Source: Flavobacteriales bacterium (GTDB lineage: Bacteria; Bacteroidota; Bacteroidia; Flavobacteriales; JANQLC01). Taken from it: a stretch of DNA of 34,152 bases. The notes below the pieces were generated by a model. That model was not told the DNA's origin, did no database searches, and saw only the letters and a program-made list of their open reading frames with translations. The number at the start of each line of letters is the position of its first letter. The first letter of the stretch is position 1. The stretch lies in the NCBI GenBank assembly GCA_028280815.1, contig JANQLC010000018.1, forward strand, positions 1 to 34,152. The letters are read 5' to 3'. The position numbers and the translations under genes are program-made. Below are positions 3,985 through 32,059 of the stretch, piece by piece.

Positions 3985-4690
3985 TCACCCTTATTAGATG
4001 ACCGCTTAAAAAGTGAGGCTTATCCCTTGCTTTCCGCCTTTTGTGAAGGTTTGAAAAGGACGGCATTTCTCCATTCCCCTTGGAGAATTAAAAGGGGATT
4101 CTCTATCCTTCTCCCTGTGTAGATCCACCCGCTTTGACCTCTGGCCTTTGCTTTCCGCCTTTTGTGAAGGTTTGAAAAGGGCGGCATTTCTCCATTCCCC
4201 TTGGAGAATTAAAAAGGGGCATTCTCTGTCCTTCTCCCTGTGTAGATCCACCCGCTTTGGCCTTTGCTGTCATCCTTTTGTGAGCGTTTAAAAAAGGCTT
4301 ATTTCTCTGGTGTTTATCTCTGAAGGAGACCACTTGGAAAGGGCGCTCGCCCTTGTCCTATAGTTCGGTCTAAATCCCAACTTTACCCCTTGGCGTTTGC
4401 TCTTTATAGGGGCTTAAAAAGGGGCTCTTTTCTCACCCGTTGGCAGTTTAAAAAGAAAAGGCTTACCCCTTTGATACTTGGTCCGTATAAGACAGCTTGA
4501 AAAAGACGCTTGTTTTTTGACTTCGTCCCATGTGGTGATTTAAAGATCGGGATTGGCTCTTATCCCGTGTATCGGTTTGGAAGAGTGGGCTTATTTTTTG
4601 TTCCTGTGGAGCAGTCTGAAAGGCTTTTTGCTTTTATCTCATGGTTTGAAAAGATGCTTCTCTTTTCGGCTGTAAACCCGATCAAACACC
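3985..4690 (+). repeat. Degenerate intergenic repeat array A (about 18 units)
   Basis: The 898-base gap between the 3' ends of metK and ftsZ is filled by short imperfect repeats, about 30-50 bases apart (mean near 39). Read on the plus strand, a unit approximates TNTCCCNTGTGNNN-CGGTTTGAAAAG-GGGCTT. Clear cores are GGTTTGAAAAGG at 4049 and 4170, GTTTAAAAAAGG at 4286, GCTTAAAAAGG at 4412, CGGTTTGGAAG at 4573 and GGTTTGAAAAG at 4643. Open frames across the array translate the repeat itself and resemble no protein. The same unit, inverted, recurs at 23.6-25.0 kb and 27.2-27.5 kb. Confidence 0.8.
4027..4259 (+). repeat. Recent tandem duplication inside array A
   Basis: Positions 4027-4135 and 4148-4259 are near-identical direct copies offset by 121 bases. 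I count only four differences: two substitutions and two single-base insertions in the second copy. Each copy spans about three of the degenerate units, so the array has grown by block duplication. Confidence 0.9.
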
Positions 4691-6357: not shown

Positions 6358-7665
6358 CTATTCAGAATCGTTTAAAAATTGCTTAAACCGCTCTGTCCAC
6401 TTGTCGAAAAAAGATTTTATGCCCTTGTCGGCTGTTTTCTCCCGTTGGTGATCCAGGGCTGTGCGCGAGGCTTCCCCTTCATCACCCGGAGCCCGTCCCG
6501 CTCGATTCTCATCCAACCCCTTCATGACCAAGCCAACAGCGGTTGCGTAGATCGGACTGCTCAGTTCCTCAGGGGCCCCACCCGCCAAATGCTCGTTGGG
6601 ATAGCCGATTCTCGTATCCATACCGGTGATGTACTCGGTGAGCTGGCGCAGGTGTTTCAATTGCGCACCTCCACCGGTCAGCACGATACCTGCGATCAAT
6701 TTCTTCTTCTGCTCCGCATGTCCATAATTGGCAATCTCCATATTCACCTGCCCTATGATTTCGCTCACGCGGGCGTGGATGATTTGAGAGAGCCGTTTTA
6801 GGGAGATCTCTTTGGGCTCACGACCGCGCAAGCCGGGGATGGAAACGATATCGGTCTCCCTGTTTTCACCCGGCCAAGCAGAACCAAACCTCACCTTGAG
6901 CTGTTCGGCTTGGCGTTCGATGATGCTACACCCGATCTTGATATCTTCCGTAACCACATTGCCCCCGTAAGGAATGACAGCGGTATGGTGAATGGTACCA
7001 TTTTTGAAGATCGCTATATCCGTCGTGCCGCCACCGATATCCACCAGCGCGACCCCGGCTTCCTTCTCTTCTCGACTCAACACGGCATCGGCTGAAGCCA
7101 AAGGCTCCAATGTAATACCCGAGAGTTCCAGCCCGGCGCTCTTAATGCAACGGCCTATATTGCGGATGGAGGATACCTGTCCGACCACTACGTGAAAGTT
7201 GGCCTCCAAACGGCTGCCATACATGCCGATGGGCTGCCGTACTTCGGATTGGCCATCCACTTTAAAGTCCTGTGGCAAGACGTGTATAATCTCCTCACCC
7301 GGCAGCATGACCAACTTGTGAACCTGTGCGATCAAATCATCTATATCCGATTGCTCAATCACCTCTTCAAAGTGGCTTCGCGTGACGTAATCCCTGTGTT
7401 GCAAGCTGCGAATATGCTGACCGGCAATGCCGACTACCACAGCTCGAATATCCGCGCCAGAATCTGAAGCGGCCTGCACGACAGCCCCTTGAATGGAGTG
7501 TATGGTCTGTGTAATATTGTTGACCACACCCCGATGTACACCGAGACTCCTCGCCCGGCCGCGTCCCAACACCTCGAGTTTGCCGTATTCATTCCTCCGA
7601 CCCACCATGGCTGCAATCTTGGTGGTCCCCACATCCAAACCGATAGCGAAGTCGTCCGTTTCCAT
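6358..7665 (-). CDS. ftsA: Cell division protein FtsA
   Basis: Actin-like ATPase that tethers FtsZ filaments to the membrane. The phosphate-1 motif IGLDVGTTKIAAMVG is at the N-terminus, and DIGGGTTDIAIF forms phosphate 2. The C-terminal IKSFFDKWTERFKQFL is amphipathic and basic, as expected of the FtsA membrane-targeting helix. The frame stays open to an ATG at 7701 inside ftsQ. I chose ATG 7665 (435 aa) because it puts the conserved strand right after the start and begins four bases past the ftsQ stop. It lies between ftsQ and ftsZ, the standard dcw order. Confidence 0.96.
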   Translation of the reverse strand: METDDFAIGLDVGTTKIAAMVGRRNEYGKLEVLGRGRARSLGVHRGVVNNITQTIHSIQGAVVQAASDSGADIRAVVVGIAGQHIRSLQHRDYVTRSHFEEVIEQSDIDDLIAQVHKLVMLPGEEIIHVLPQDFKVDGQSEVRQPIGMYGSRLEANFHVVVGQVSSIRNIGRCIKSAGLELSGITLEPLASADAVLSREEKEAGVALVDIGGGTTDIAIFKNGTIHHTAVIPYGGNVVTEDIKIGCSIIERQAEQLKVRFGSAWPGENRETDIVSIPGLRGREPKEISLKRLSQIIHARVSEIIGQVNMEIANYGHAEQKKKLIAGIVLTGGGAQLKHLRQLTEYITGMDTRIGYPNEHLAGGAPEELSSPIYATAVGLVMKGLDENRAGRAPGDEGEASRTALDHQREKTADKGIKSFFDKWTERFKQFLNDSE

Positions 7666-23616: not shown

Positions 23617-23961
23617 CGAGACAAACACCAAAAAACAAGCCCTCTTCTCAAGCCGACCATTGGAAATAAAAGAGCAAGCCCTGACTTCAAACCGTCCAGC
23701 GTCAAATAGGCGACAAAGTCGGCTGTGCTGACCACAGACCCATACAAAAAAACAAGTCCCGCTTTCAAGTCGCATCCAGAGACAAATACAAAGCGTAGGG
23801 TTGGAGGCTCAGACCGGCCCATAGGACAAGAGCGATCCCCTTTTCAAACGGTCTCCTTCAGAGACGAAACCCAAAAAACACCCCTCACTTCTCAGACGCA
23901 CGCCAAGTGAAAAATACAACGAACGACAGCGGGCTGGCCACGGGAATAAAAAGGGTCTGCT
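23617..23961 (-). repeat. Degenerate repeat array B, left part
   Basis: Irregular units follow nadE. On the plus strand they approximate CTTTCAAACCG-N4-8-CAGAGACAAANACC-AAAAACAAGCC. Anchors are near 23646, 23686, 23725, 23764, 23807, 23843 and 23891, with spacing 36-48. The orientation is opposite to array A, so I assign the minus strand for the GGTTTGAAAAG form. Open frames here translate repeats only. Confidence 0.7.
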
Positions 23962-24233
23962 TTCAAACCCGCACACACAGGGACTAACGCGGCTCGCGGC
24001 TGTGGGCGAGTGGGATATCATTTTCAAACCCGCACACACAGGGACTAACGGCAAATATAAGCTGCCACGCACTGCCAAAAAAGTTCAAACCCGCGCACAC
24101 AGGGACTAACGCCATATAAAAGCGATATAAAAAGCCACGATTTATTCAAACCCGCGCATACAGGGACTAACGCATAAAAATTTGATTATCAACAACTTAA
24201 TACTGTTCAAACCCGCGCACACAGGGACTAACG
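23962..24233 (-). CRISPR. Short CRISPR-like array, five repeats, four spacers
   Basis: Five 28-base repeats begin at 23962, 24023, 24084, 24145 and 24206, an exact 61-base period. All begin TTCAAACCCGC and end CAGGGACTAACG (plus-strand reading). They differ at only two inner positions: A or G in repeats 1-2 versus 3-5, and one T in repeat 4. The four 33-base spacers share no similarity with one another. A 61-base unit is the geometry of type I-E arrays (29+32), and a C follows four of the five repeats. The internal palindrome is weak (CCC/GGG). No cas gene lies in the window, and transcription direction is not certain; the minus strand is assigned only for consistency with neighbouring repeats. 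Confidence 0.62.
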
Positions 24234-24345
24234 CCAAAACACAGGTCGTCTTTCAAACGTCAAAAGGAAGTAAAAATAAGCGCAGCGTTTGAGCTGACTC
24301 CCTCAGAGACAAACCCCAAAAACAAAGGCTGGTGTGTTCCAGACC
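24234..24345 (-). repeat. Degenerate repeat array B, middle part
   Basis: Irregular units resume immediately after the last 61-base-period repeat. TTCAAACGTC lies at 24252, CTCAGAGACAAACCCC near 24302 and a TTCCAGACC-like anchor at 24337. They have the same core as the CRISPR-like repeat but no regular period. Confidence 0.6.
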
Positions 24346-24530
24346 CCCACGCGGATTGCCTATCGCAATTGGGACTTGTTTTCGTCTGAATAGATAGAAT
24401 GACGATTCTCTTACGCCATTTCAATGCAAGAAAAATTGTATTGCCGGGTAGTATGTGTTTTCCAAAAAAAGGACGATTCGTTTTTCGGACTATATTTGCA
24501 ACTGGAGCCTAGGGCAGAAACCAAAAAAAT
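24346..24530. other. AT-rich non-repeat island within array B
   Basis: About 185 bases interrupt the array and contain no repeat units and no credible ORF. At 24491-24498 the plus strand reads TATATTTG, an exact -7 promoter box, without a good TTG upstream. If the CRISPR-like array is transcribed on the minus strand, this AT-rich DNA is where a leader could sit. Otherwise I see no feature. Confidence 0.3.
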
Positions 24531-24534
24531 AAAA

Positions 24535-24990
24535 GTCGCCTTTTAAACTGGATCCCACAGGTAAAAATCAAAGAGCAACCCTAGATTTTCAGACCCACGC
24601 CAGCTCAAAATACGCGGCAAAAGTGACCGGTTTGACCTATTGGATGCACACCTCTTACCCAAATCTGCGCAGCAGGTCAACGAGGGTGTTTCCCATGTGA
24701 TCGATACCGAGATTAGACTGTTGAAACAAAACGCGGGGATAAAAAAACAAATCCTTTTTCGACCGATCGGCACAGCGCAAAAACGAGAGGATAAGACCCG
24801 CTTTTCAGCTGACATAGGAGACAAAGAGCTCCCCCTTTTCAAACCGACTGAGAAGACAAATACCCAAAAACAAGCCCGCCCTTCAGACCTTCCACAGAGA
24901 CAAAGGCCAAAAAATGGAGCCGAATTTCCAAACTGCCAAGCGGGAACGGAAAATAAGCCTCGTCCTTCAGGTCGCAGGGGAATCGATGGA
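24535..24990 (-). repeat. Degenerate repeat array B, right part
   Basis: Repeat units continue to the dnaG stop. Anchors are at 24541 (TTTTAAACTGG with CCCACAGG), 24594, 24757, 24799, 24836 (TTTTCAAACCGACTGAG), 24880 (CTTCAGACC with CCACAGAGACAAAGG), 24925 and 24965. Spacing is 37-45 in the well-preserved stretch. Roughly 24620-24745 is too degenerate to assign. Confidence 0.65.
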
Positions 24991-27199: not shown

Positions 27200-27510
27200 A
27201 GGAGGTACACGACCACAGCCCCTTGAAATTCCCATTGGAAATACGCCGCTCTTCAAAACCGCCACCCCAATACAAGAGCAAAAGACAATCCGCCTCTCAA
27301 ACCGACTCAAAAGACAAAGACTGAATTTTCAAGGCGAAGCACAGAGAGGAGAAAAGAATGAGCTCCGTCTTTAGACAGCCTAGCGGACAAAAGCACAAGC
27401 ATAAGGCCGAGTTTCAAATTCCCCCGAATTGAGATATATGATAAAGATGAGCGCGGCTTTTCAAACCGTCTCGAGTTCGAATAGGGGATAAAAACCAACG
27501 TGGTCAGCCC
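27200..27510 (-). repeat. Degenerate repeat array C
   Basis: This is the third array, between the queA stop and dnaG start. Plus-strand anchors are CTTCAAAACCGCC at 27251, CTCAAACCGACTC at 27295, TTTTCAAGGCGAAGCACAGA near 27328, a degenerate unit near 27369, TTTCAAATTCC near 27413 and TTTTCAAACCGTCTCGAG near 27459. Spacing is 34-47. The orientation equals array B, and in both cases the GGTTTGAAAAG form is co-directional with dnaG. The remainder of the 686-base gap (26922-27200 and 27510-27607) holds only the -7 candidate and no gene. Confidence 0.65.
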
Positions 27511-28864: not shown

Positions 28865-29053
28865 ATGGATTTAAAAGCGATTCAACCCGAGCTATATACT
28901 TCCCGCAAAATCCTAAAAGTCAAGCCCATATGGATAAAACGCATCAGCGATATCGAGGGCCGAGCGGTAAGCATTTCTCACCTATTATTGAAAGATCAGT
29001 CAACCCAAGTCAAGCGTTTATTAGCAGAACACTCAAAAAATAGGTATATATGA
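28865..29053 (+). CDS. Small basic protein preceding the restriction gene
   Basis: An ORF of 62 residues that I do not recognise. It starts at ATG 28865, is rich in Lys and Ile (RKILKVKPIWIKRI), and ends in a predicted helix (STQVKRLLAEHSKNRYI). Its stop codon overlaps the nuclease start (ATGA, 29050-29053), the arrangement of a translationally coupled gene. The position in front of a restriction gene would suit a regulator. However, no helix-turn-helix of the C-protein type is visible, and it could be a remnant of a longer gene. A weak promoter (TTG 28806-28808, GAACTTTG 28829-28836) lies upstream. Confidence 0.5.
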   Translation: MDLKAIQPELYTSRKILKVKPIWIKRISDIEGRAVSISHLLLKDQSTQVKRLLAEHSKNRYI

Positions 29054-30000
29054 AAAAGCTAAGTGATTATATAAAGGAGAAGTTCGGCATCCACGAAGAC
29101 AAATTTCTGGAGGCTATGCAAATGAGCCCCGGCGCAGAAGGCTATCTACACGGCTCTTTGGGCGAATTGCTATTTAAAGAATACGTTGAACTCAAAGGTT
29201 TTGAAGCGCTCAGAATCAAAGAAAAACCCAAAGGTGGTTACAACGCCAAAAGCGATAAAGCGAGAGGCAACTTTTACATCAGAAAAAAGGCGAGCACAAG
29301 AGATGGGTGGTATGTAATCGAGAACAAAGGAATCAAAACCAATGCTGAGACACACCTCTTCGGGTTGTATACCAAAAAAAATCTCTTTACTCATTTAAAG
29401 AGCCTCGCCTTCCCCAAACCCGATTATTTGGAAAGGTCGTATCGAAAGGGACTAAATGCCTATAAAAAAGCAAGAGCAGAATGGGAACGCAAAAATCCGG
29501 GTGCGCATTTTCCAGCATTTAGCTGGGATAAAAAAACCCCTGGATCAAGGGCTTTTAACCTGATTGGCTATTGGAAAAACGAAGCGGAATTGAAGACTTG
29601 GGTAGAGAATCTCAACGATATGAGCCTGACAAAGGACGACTATTTAAACCTCAAAGGCCCCATTAGAATACTGGCAACCCATGCGCCGAGCAACAGGGTC
29701 GCGCCCGCCACTGGCATCAAGCAAACCGCACCATTGGTTTCAGATTTCAATATAATGTGTGTGGATTTGTTTCAGAGAATTGGGGCACACCAATTCGTGT
29801 TCATGAATCCCAATAGCATTTCTCACTCACCGACAAGCCCTGAACACCTATACCAAAATTACTACATCGACTACATCATACCAGGGGTTAAAGATACGCT
29901 AAAACTATCACACCCTTGGTATGGCGATATTGAGCAATGCATCAAGCAGACGCATCCCATTCCCAGAAAAATGGACAAATCACAATTGGATTTGAGATAA
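29050..30000 (+). CDS. Putative type II restriction endonuclease, PD-(D/E)XK-like
   Basis: A 316-residue protein that is probably the nuclease of the module. The segment HGSLGELLFKEYV (34-46) resembles the first helix of PD-(D/E)XK nucleases, with Glu39. A strand ending in WYVIENKG (87-94) offers the E-x-K pair Glu91 and Lys93. An acidic residue between them (Asp69 or Asp85) could complete the site. There is no helicase or translocase motif, so this is not an HsdR. It is coupled to the small upstream ORF (ATGA) and lies 52 bases before the methyltransferase-specificity gene. Base composition is AT-richer than the dcw genes, suggesting acquisition. The nuclease role is inferred from motif and context; I recognise no named homologue. 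Confidence 0.68.
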   Translation: MKKLSDYIKEKFGIHEDKFLEAMQMSPGAEGYLHGSLGELLFKEYVELKGFEALRIKEKPKGGYNAKSDKARGNFYIRKKASTRDGWYVIENKGIKTNAETHLFGLYTKKNLFTHLKSLAFPKPDYLERSYRKGLNAYKKARAEWERKNPGAHFPAFSWDKKTPGSRAFNLIGYWKNEAELKTWVENLNDMSLTKDDYLNLKGPIRILATHAPSNRVAPATGIKQTAPLVSDFNIMCVDLFQRIGAHQFVFMNPNSISHSPTSPEHLYQNYYIDYIIPGVKDTLKLSHPWYGDIEQCIKQTHPIPRKMDKSQLDLR

Positions 30001-30005
30001 CTCCC

Positions 30006-30035
30006 TTGTCTTACGGGTGTTTGTGATTATATTTG
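30006..30035 (+). promoter_or_regulatory. Candidate promoter of the methyltransferase gene
   Basis: TTG at 30006-30008, a 19-base spacer, then TATATTTG at 30028-30035, an exact TAnnTTTG. Transcription would begin near 30042, leaving about 10 bases before ATG 30053. This would let the methylase be made independently of the nuclease. Confidence 0.6.
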
Positions 30036-30042
30036 TCACAAA
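30020..30042 (+). promoter_or_regulatory. Operator-like inverted repeat on the methylase promoter
   Basis: TTTGTGA (30020-30026) and TCACAAA (30036-30042) are perfect 7-base inverted arms separated by nine bases, and the -7 box lies almost entirely between them. Such a position predicts repression by a dimer. The arms resemble a CRP half-site, but the spacing is 9, not 6. Confidence 0.6.
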
Positions 30043-30052
30043 TGTGCAGATA

Positions 30053-32059
30053 ATGGCGCTCCAACTGGACTTTGAATTGAGCAGAAGCGACAAGATTTTA
30101 GGAAAGTTTGAAAAAATTCACAATTTTATATACGCCCACGACGGGCTTTCCACGCAACAAACCCTAGAGGAATTCATCAAAATTCTATTTATCAAGGTAA
30201 TCGATGAAAAAACGAGAGCAGGAAACTTCCACATGCGTGAAATTGAGCTCGACCACAATGAGAGTTCGAAAAAACCACAGCAGCTGATAGACGGAATCAA
30301 CGGGCTTTTTTCCGATACGATAAAGGCGTATCCCGAATTGTTTGACAAACACGATAGAATAAAGTTAAGCCCTATTTCTCTGGCCAATACCATACATAAA
30401 CTGCAGGACATCTCGCTTACAAACTCGCTCAATGATGCCAAGGGGCTGGCCTTTCAAAAGTTTCTCTCACACCGAGAAAGAGATGGAAGGGGCCAATTTT
30501 TCACGCCCGAACCCATCGTTGACTTTTGTGTGCGTTTCATCCAGCCCAAACCCGATGAAACCATTATTGACCCAGCTTGTGGAAGCGGCGGATTTTTGAG
30601 TGCTTCGTTCAACTATATTTTAAAAAACAACGGAGACATAGATACCGAAAAAATCGTCTCAGAAAATCTTTACGGACTGGACATCAACAAAAGCGTAGCG
30701 CGAATCGCCAAGATGAAACTGCTCCTCGAAGCCCATGTCGATACCCACGTAAGGTGTGTTAACGCGCTGACTGACTTGGGAGAAATACTTCTAAAATTAA
30801 CGGGGGACAAATCTTTCAAAGGCTTTGATGTGGTACTGACAAATCCACCATTTGGCACAGCTGGTAAAATCACCGATAAAAAAATTCTCTCCGCTTTCGA
30901 TTTGGGTCACAAGTGGAAAAAGGTGGGTCCAGAGAACTTCGTAAAAACAACTGCGCTTCACGCCGGTCAGGTAGCCGAAATACTATTCATTGAAAGGTGT
31001 ATCGATCTGCTAAAAGAAGGTGGCAGAATGGGCATTGTCCTTCCAAATGGACACTTTGAAAATCCCTCATTGGAATATTTGAGATCCTACATCAAGCAGC
31101 GGACTAAAATTCTGGGTGTCGTCAATTTGCCGCAAGAGACATTTATCCCATATGGCACGGGTATAAAAGCTTCTCTGCTATTCGTACAAAAAGTCAGGCC
31201 CAACACAGCGCAAAAGTATACAGTATTTTTCAGTCAAATCCGGAAAATCGGTTACCGAGGGAACAAAAATGGCGGCCCGATCTACTTAAAGGACAATTAC
31301 GGAAAAATATTGAGAGACGAAAATAAAAACCCGATATTAGACGAGGACCTACCCAATGTCATCAGCGATTACGCCCTCTTCAATAATGAAAATCACATAG
31401 AGACGACCCATTCATTCTCCATTGAATACGACGAGATGGGCGATCGTTTTGACTACGACTTTTACTCTCCCCAATACAGGCGACTGATCGAGAAAATCAA
31501 AGAACGCCATGCCGTCATGCTATCCGATATCGCCGACATCGTAAAGACCAAGAGCGAGCGCTTATCAAACAAGGATGCCATAGTTGAATACGTAGAGCTC
31601 TCAGATATCAGCACATCCTCCCTTGAGATTACCAGCTCGACCCAAATAGTCGTTCACGAATTGCCGAGCAGGGCATCCTACGCCTTGGAAAAAGGAGATA
31701 TTATCACAGCGGTAGCTGGAAATTCGATCGGCTCGCGCAAACACGCCACCGCTCTCGTGGGCGCAGAGTTTAAAGGCACCATATGCACCAACGGGTTTCG
31801 GGTGCTGAGAAATTTTAAAATCGACCCCTATTACTTGATCTATTATCTCAGGTCGAGGTATTTCCTCGAGCAAATTTCAGCTTTGAGAACGGGTGCTGCC
31901 ATTCCCAGTATTTCCGATGAGGACCTCGGAAAGCTATGGATCATCATTCCGGATGTCGATACGATAAAACAAATCGGTGATAGTGTACGTAAATCATTTA
32001 AATTAAGGGAAAGATCAAAAAGAGAACTCAATAGCATAGCGCATAAGCTCACCTTATGA
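30053..32059 (+). CDS. Adenine-N6 DNA methyltransferase fused to a specificity domain (M-S)
   Basis: Type I-like modification protein. The N-terminal helical HsdM region (about 1-130) is followed by the methyltransferase domain with GQFFTPEPIVDF (147-158), the SAM motif DPACGSGGFL (173-182) and catalytic NPPF (264-267). From about 465 to 668 comes an HsdS-like target-recognition domain (IADIVKTKSERL, LEKGDIITAVAGNSIGSR, AAIPSISDEDLGKLWIIIP) ending in a helical stretch. Only one target domain is present, so a symmetric, bipartite recognition site read by a dimer is predicted. The frame is open from GTG 30017, but those bases overlap the promoter and operator; ATG 30053 (668 aa) is preferred. 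No hsdR is present; the partner nuclease is the preceding gene. Confidence 0.9.
   Translation: MALQLDFELSRSDKILGKFEKIHNFIYAHDGLSTQQTLEEFIKILFIKVIDEKTRAGNFHMREIELDHNESSKKPQQLIDGINGLFSDTIKAYPELFDKHDRIKLSPISLANTIHKLQDISLTNSLNDAKGLAFQKFLSHRERDGRGQFFTPEPIVDFCVRFIQPKPDETIIDPACGSGGFLSASFNYILKNNGDIDTEKIVSENLYGLDINKSVARIAKMKLLLEAHVDTHVRCVNALTDLGEILLKLTGDKSFKGFDVVLTNPPFGTAGKITDKKILSAFDLGHKWKKVGPENFVKTTALHAGQVAEILFIERCIDLLKEGGRMGIVLPNGHFENPSLEYLRSYIKQRTKILGVVNLPQETFIPYGTGIKASLLFVQKVRPNTAQKYTVFFSQIRKIGYRGNKNGGPIYLKDNYGKILRDENKNPILDEDLPNVISDYALFNNENHIETTHSFSIEYDEMGDRFDYDFYSPQYRRLIEKIKERHAVMLSDIADIVKTKSERLSNKDAIVEYVELSDISTSSLEITSSTQIVVHELPSRASYALEKGDIITAVAGNSIGSRKHATALVGAEFKGTICTNGFRVLRNFKIDPYYLIYYLRSRYFLEQISALRTGAAIPSISDEDLGKLWIIIPDVDTIKQIGDSVRKSFKLRERSKRELNSIAHKLTL

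Follow-up and report, generated by a model that had tools for sequence, protein, structure and literature searches.

Very probable origin of a five-repeat CRISPR array by off-target type I-E integration into an intergenic repeat family of a Flavobacteriales bacterium

Does a short CRISPR-like array that lies apart from any cas gene, among irregular repeats with which it shares a core, descend from an older array, merely resemble one, or record a different process? We examined this question for a 34,152-nucleotide stretch of DNA (the window), which is contig C22 of a draft Flavobacteriales assembly (1.59 Mb in 42 contigs, 92% complete); a single genome was analysed, from its sequence. At 23962-24233 we observed five near-identical 28-nt repeats (TTCAAACCCGCRCAYACAGGGACTAACG; in short form TTCAAACCC...ACTAACG) with a period of exactly 61 nt, separated by four mutually unlike 33-nt spacers. 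The surrounding open reading frames (ORFs) were read by eye as nadE-like and dnaG-like, and no cas genes adjoined the array. The array and the repeat tracts had no RNA family match in Rfam, the sole match in the window being a SAM-II riboswitch (2506-2564; 60.5 bits) upstream of a metK-like gene. Adjoining ORFs at 29050-32059 were read by eye as a restriction enzyme and an N6-adenine DNA methylase. A sequence-only reading of the window had offered two explanations for the array, either a CRISPR array that had decayed or spread into intergenic DNA, or an unrelated repeat family that had given rise to a regular segment mimicking CRISPR. The features of the locus, together with related loci elsewhere in the genome, are collected in Table 1.

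Table 1. Positions of the array, its parts, the repeat tracts and the further loci; positions without a contig prefix are those of the window
Feature	Position	Strand	Remark
Irregular tract hosting the array	23617-24990	+	Between convergent nadE-like and dnaG-like genes (names by eye)
Family tract	3985-4690	-	Between convergent metK-like and ftsZ-like genes (names by eye)
Family tract	27200-27500	+	Between dnaG-like and queA-like genes (names by eye)
Native upstream flank of opened unit	23938-23961	+	PSSM score 5.4
R1, left-most repeat, variant GCACACA	23962-23989	+	Left border of opened native unit
Spacer 1, 33 nt	23990-24022	+	Exact copy of own chromosome, C37:138780-138812; flank AA|C forward
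R2	24023-24050	+	Same sequence as R1
Spacer 2	24051-24083	+	29/33 to contig C24 of the same genome, close upstream of tRNA-Arg(acg)
R3, variant GCGCACA	24084-24111	+	
Spacer 3	24112-24144	+	Source not found
R4, variant GCGCATA	24145-24172	+	
Spacer 4	24173-24205	+	Without convincing source
R5, right-most repeat	24206-24233	+	
Native tail of opened unit	24234-24251	+	Runs into next unit at 24252
Further locus	C10		Three copies, two spacers inside PfkB sugar-kinase gene
Further locus	C12		Single spacer within a different native unit of the family
Further locus	C17		One spacer in DUF2586 gene
Further locus	C29		One spacer upstream of aldehyde dehydrogenase gene
Further locus O1	C12:26692		Diverged copies, period 60; inside OMP beta-barrel (outer-membrane) gene

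The search for cas genes elsewhere in the genome, which the sequence-only reading had proposed, returned two systems. A type I-E locus was found on contig C20 (Cas3, Cse1, Cse2, Cas6e, Cas7, Cas5, Cas1e and Cas2e by NCBIfam) and a type II locus on contig C15 (Cas9 and an NMENI-type Cas1), and the Cas1 genes found in the genome were of these two types only. Beside the type I-E cas genes lies a canonical array of 37 repeats of GTCTTCCCCACGCATGTGGGGGTGTTTC, in which 34 of the 36 periods are exactly 61 nt, and its 28-nt repeats and 33-nt spacers give the same geometry as the window array. Since 28 plus 33 gives 61, while the type II repeat period is near 76, only the I-E geometry fits. Like a canonical type I-E array, whether that of E. 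coli or the organism's own, the window array combines a 28-nt duplication with a 33-nt insert, and its repeats are uniform, its spacers unique and its lengths fixed; unlike a canonical array, it has an unrelated repeat, a weak hairpin, no adjoining cas genes and mostly self spacers. Its repeat matched the I-E repeat at 12 of 28 positions in the forward direction, with the reverse direction as good or better. The type II system has two arrays with a nearly identical 46-nt repeat, at L091:7480-8587 and L244:1501-1849 (minus strand). Degenerate pieces of this repeat were observed at L091:4980-5182, 6447-6580 and 7362-7450, with more on other contigs by BLAST, and at least three type II spacers within L091:8285-8541 matched the organism's own DNA at 97-100% over 29-33 nt (C4, C15, C26).

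The irregular relatives that had been described around the array, in inverted form at 3985-4690 and again at 27.2-27.5 kb, were all seen. A profile built from 33 units of the window, with the array copies excluded, was run over 133 kb from elsewhere in the same genome and gave 94 matches scoring 5 bits or more, compared with 1.0 in dinucleotide shuffles; most of these 133 kb were picked by the core pattern, which guarantees only about one match per locus. An array copy scored 5.8 bits under this profile, so that the likeness between the array repeat and the irregular units lies above the shuffled expectation. The family was also present in 24 of 29 stretches picked independently of matches (580 kb, 128 matches) and is dispersed through the genome. 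Only 10 of these 128 matches fell inside ORFs of at least 200 aa, though such ORFs make up 64% of the sequence, and the 93 matches outside ORFs with an ORF on both sides were divided into 54 convergent, 28 codirectional and 11 divergent settings. The core CTTTTCAAACCG, with at most one mismatch, occurred 126 times in the genome and its reversed pattern 13 times, an excess of about tenfold. No comparable excess was observed in 39 relatives from the order, none of them nearer than the same order, where the highest ratio was 25 to 10. Outside the window the family consensus has a run of A followed by CC.CTTTTCAAACCG; after a brief variable stretch come CAcaGGgaaAAAA and a further A-rich linker. 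Within the minus-strand tract we also observed two 74-nt copies, 96% alike and 121 nt apart (4024-4218).

The common core of the array repeat and the irregular units is what would be expected if the family consisted of decayed CRISPR arrays with the five-repeat segment as their last intact part. The remaining evidence runs against this explanation, the first of the two offered earlier. All 34 distances below 70 nt between native units lay at 35-49 nt and none at 50-69 nt, so a CRISPR spacing has not been kept, and the units showed little likeness to the organism's own I-E repeat, with a mean of 8.5 of 28 identities versus 7.0 for random genome 28-mers in the same script. The prevalence of the family in the unbiased stretches, the non-native flanks of R2-R5 given below and the presence of a recent, exact self copy among the spacers likewise speak against decay, which we consider highly improbable.

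The position of the array relative to the native units was determined with a position-weight matrix of the 24 nt preceding native units, for which the native median was 10.0 and the tenth percentile 2.7. The upstream flank of R1 was native-like, at the 22nd percentile of native units, while those of R2 to R5 scored -6.7, -19.1, -1.7 and -14.8 and were not native. The 24 nt preceding the unit at 24252, which include the tail of R5, again scored as native-like (4.5), and the distance from R5 to that unit is 46 nt, within the native spacing mode. When four periods of 61 bp were removed in a script, a single unit of 5.5 bits with normal neighbours was left. Because of these flank scores, the 46-nt spacing and the score of the empty site, we place the whole array inside a single 46-nt native unit. 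Ordinary tandem duplication, or slippage during replication, might come to mind for a family that is itself tandem-like, but slippage copies the linker along with the entire unit. In the array 28 nt were kept around four unrelated 33-nt inserts, one of which is an exact copy of a distant gene, and we regard such an origin as extremely improbable.

The same geometry was observed at other places in the genome. We scanned 748,578 distinct 31-mers of the organism's own DNA, equal to 47% of the genome, with the window and the canonical arrays excluded. Exact 28/28 duplications at an offset of 61 were found at five junctions in four loci, and the other 60 offsets from 40 to 100 together gave eight. 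In 1.25 Mb from 80 loci of relatives there were no 28/28 duplications at any offset from 40 to 100; dnaG relatives at 43-52% identity (Flavobacteriales and other Bacteroidota) served as a negative control only. With one older locus at a period of 60, a total of five further loci were found in the scanned 47%, or six including the window. Two of the exact loci lie within genes. The PfkB gene has a broken frame of 48 aa, which became 315 aa when the insert was removed in a script, and the open frame of the DUF2586 gene spans 282 codons with the spacer and 370 without it. At the older locus, O1, a by-eye reading suggests that removal of one period leaves the frame unrestored, and this locus was counted as off-target only because its 32-nt insert matches the organism's own contig C18 at 31 of 32 positions. 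The five exact sites, the window included, summed to 56 identities with the I-E repeat in register (p = 1e-4 against random genome positions), and each of the five had at least three G at positions 18-22; the site labelled N1 matched the I-E repeat at 7 of 28 positions in the forward direction. Beside the C29 insertion we observed an A/C-rich low-complexity intergenic tract (L228:5461-6780; CCAATCC/CCAACC words by eye) that is distinct from the family.

These loci bear on another explanation, in which the window array would be canonical and belong to a second CRISPR-Cas system, different or acquired, with its cas genes in the unassembled part of the genome. The regular geometry and the I-E-like length are compatible with this, as is the 92% completeness of the assembly. 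Against it, the array repeat belongs to the intergenic family of the host itself, and the array borders fall within one native unit. The restriction of the Cas1 genes found to types I-E and II, and the five other loci with other repeats and the same or nearly the same 28 + 33 geometry, also count against a second system, and we find it very unlikely.

The sources of the spacers separated the off-target loci from the canonical array. Matches to the organism's own chromosome were found for 8 of 10 off-target spacers versus 3 of 36 canonical I-E spacers (Fisher, 2.5e-5), and under a stricter cut of BLAST matches of at least 97% for 6 of 10 versus 3 of 36 (1.4e-3); these are small numbers, drawn from about half of the genome. 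Four off-target spacers matched own DNA at 33 of 33 positions (spacer 1 of the window, both PfkB spacers and the C17 spacer), as did all three canonical self spacers. The match of spacer 1, from the start of a DAO-family gene, ends exactly at the repeat borders. Matches were less complete for the C29 spacer, with 28/29 in BLAST and 28/33 at full length, and for the spacer in the C12 family unit, with 28/33. Outside the genome, the array region gave five phage records, all with E >= 1, and no plasmid records, and 20-nt exact scans of IMG/VR gave a single match, between the first 20 nt of spacer 4 and one viral contig. This match extends to only 24 of 33 positions and was treated as chance.

The dinucleotide AA adjoined an end of 8 of the 11 self protospacers, where 0.157 was expected for each (p = 4e-5); these were all three canonical ones and five of the eight off-target ones. 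It was absent from both ends for the off-target spacers P2 and N1, the latter a 28/33 match to own DNA, and for the 32-nt insert of O1 it appeared only after a shift of one base. In the canonical self spacers (array L092:11115-13336) AA was always on the reverse side, as if they had been inserted flipped, while off-target protospacers had it forward in four cases and reverse in one, namely spacer 2 of the window, with AA|C. This contrast in forward flanks (4/5 off-target versus 0/3 canonical) is suggestive and not significant, with p = 0.14 in the literal count and p = 0.048 if the O1 insert is shifted by one base. A pyrimidine stood first in the insert for 9 of 10 off-target spacers and for 31 of 36 canonical ones.

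Taken with the loci above, we consider it very probable that the window array is a neo-CRISPR, formed by four off-target integrations of the organism's own type I-E Cas1-Cas2 into a native unit of the repeat family. The integrase would have mistaken the intergenic unit for a leader-repeat site, and in each of the four events a 33-bp prespacer would have been inserted and the 28-bp target copied, adding 61 bp. Site choice by Cas1e-Cas2e may favour a G-rich right arm resembling that of the canonical repeat, and the same enzyme would have inserted spacer units at no fewer than five further loci, genes included. Growth of the array was probably always at the left (R1) end, because R1 and R2 share a substitution and because the source match falls from spacer 1 to spacers 3 and 4. 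The second of the earlier explanations thus holds in its first half, that the family gave rise to the regular segment, but not in its second, since the segment appears to be a real product of adaptation and so a genuine CRISPR array rather than a mimic.

Such an array could also be a working one, with processed transcripts and self spacers that regulate or target the organism's own genes. The exact match of spacer 1 to its source gene, with a forward AA|C flank, would fit this, as would the short hairpin possible in some neo-repeats, two of which fold moderately (C29 site, -6.9 kcal/mol; PfkB site, -5.7 kcal/mol). The window repeat, however, has a predicted fold of -3.6 kcal/mol versus -11.7 kcal/mol for the canonical repeat; because of this weak fold and the lack of the canonical I-E hairpin, processing by Cas6e is improbable. 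If used, a self spacer that matches perfectly and has the flank deduced here in forward orientation should moreover kill the cell, and all three canonical self spacers have the flank on the reverse side. We therefore regard a working array as unlikely, and the neo-CRISPR in the window as probably silent, which would explain why a perfect self spacer with the right flank is tolerated.

In the E. coli work on such events, the sites used reportedly look like the native CRISPR locus, and the same work is reported to list a few putative natural examples, in Yersinia pestis and Sulfolobus islandicus. Off-target integration by Cas1-Cas2 is itself known in E. coli (Nivala, Shipman and Church 2018, Nat Microbiol 3:310; cited in PMC11788318, PMC9456107). 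The likeness to those neo-CRISPR loci lies in Cas1-Cas2 insertion at off-target chromosomal sites that yields a new CRISPR-like locus; the present case differs in being natural, in its six loci within roughly half of a single genome, one with four spacers in a dispersed intergenic family and others in genes, and in its mostly self-derived spacers. Type II-A Cas1-Cas2 in vitro also uses off-target sites that resemble the leader-repeat junction (PMC6895254), non-CRISPR sites as here but with a type II system and purified proteins on plasmids, and Streptococcus thermophilus and S. mutans acquire ectopic spacers away from the leader end (PMC7999890, PMC8265633), a similar off-leader placement whose events, unlike those described here, stay within an existing array. 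In E. coli the protospacer is 33 bp, with the last repeat nucleotide derived from the PAM, and naive adaptation may capture self DNA, with up to 50% of its spacers having a canonical PAM (PMC10011333). A review of the self-targeting paradox mentions that acquisition without negative selection is possible where only Cas1 and Cas2 remain (PMC6990116). The open literature, subscription papers being outside our scope, yielded no earlier description of one genome carrying several off-target arrays in nature, nor any account of how much self DNA such arrays contain. We see here a natural case of a mechanism known from E. coli, made unusual by the six loci in one genome, the four-spacer array, the broken genes and the mostly self spacers.

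The origin of new CRISPR arrays, and the amount of self DNA that naive adaptation captures in nature, are hard to learn from working arrays, where selection acts against self spacers. Several off-target arrays in one genome, probably silent, make both questions measurable from sequence, as in the contrast of 8 of 10 versus 3 of 36 self spacers. A caution also follows for annotation, since a short CRISPR called where cas genes are missing may be a side product of a system located in another part of the same genome. The broken genes provide an apparent case of a CRISPR integrase disrupting genes of its host. Beyond this, we give an even chance to a broader reading in which the off-target arrays form an unfiltered archive of naive adaptation, mostly of own DNA. 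They would keep what Cas1-Cas2 captures because they are not made into working crRNAs, while the canonical array would be purged of correctly oriented self spacers because of autoimmunity, and in this lineage the integrase would act as a slow insertional mutagen, opening up intergenic repeats and disrupting genes. The arrays would then preserve, from nature, what the machinery takes up under little selection.
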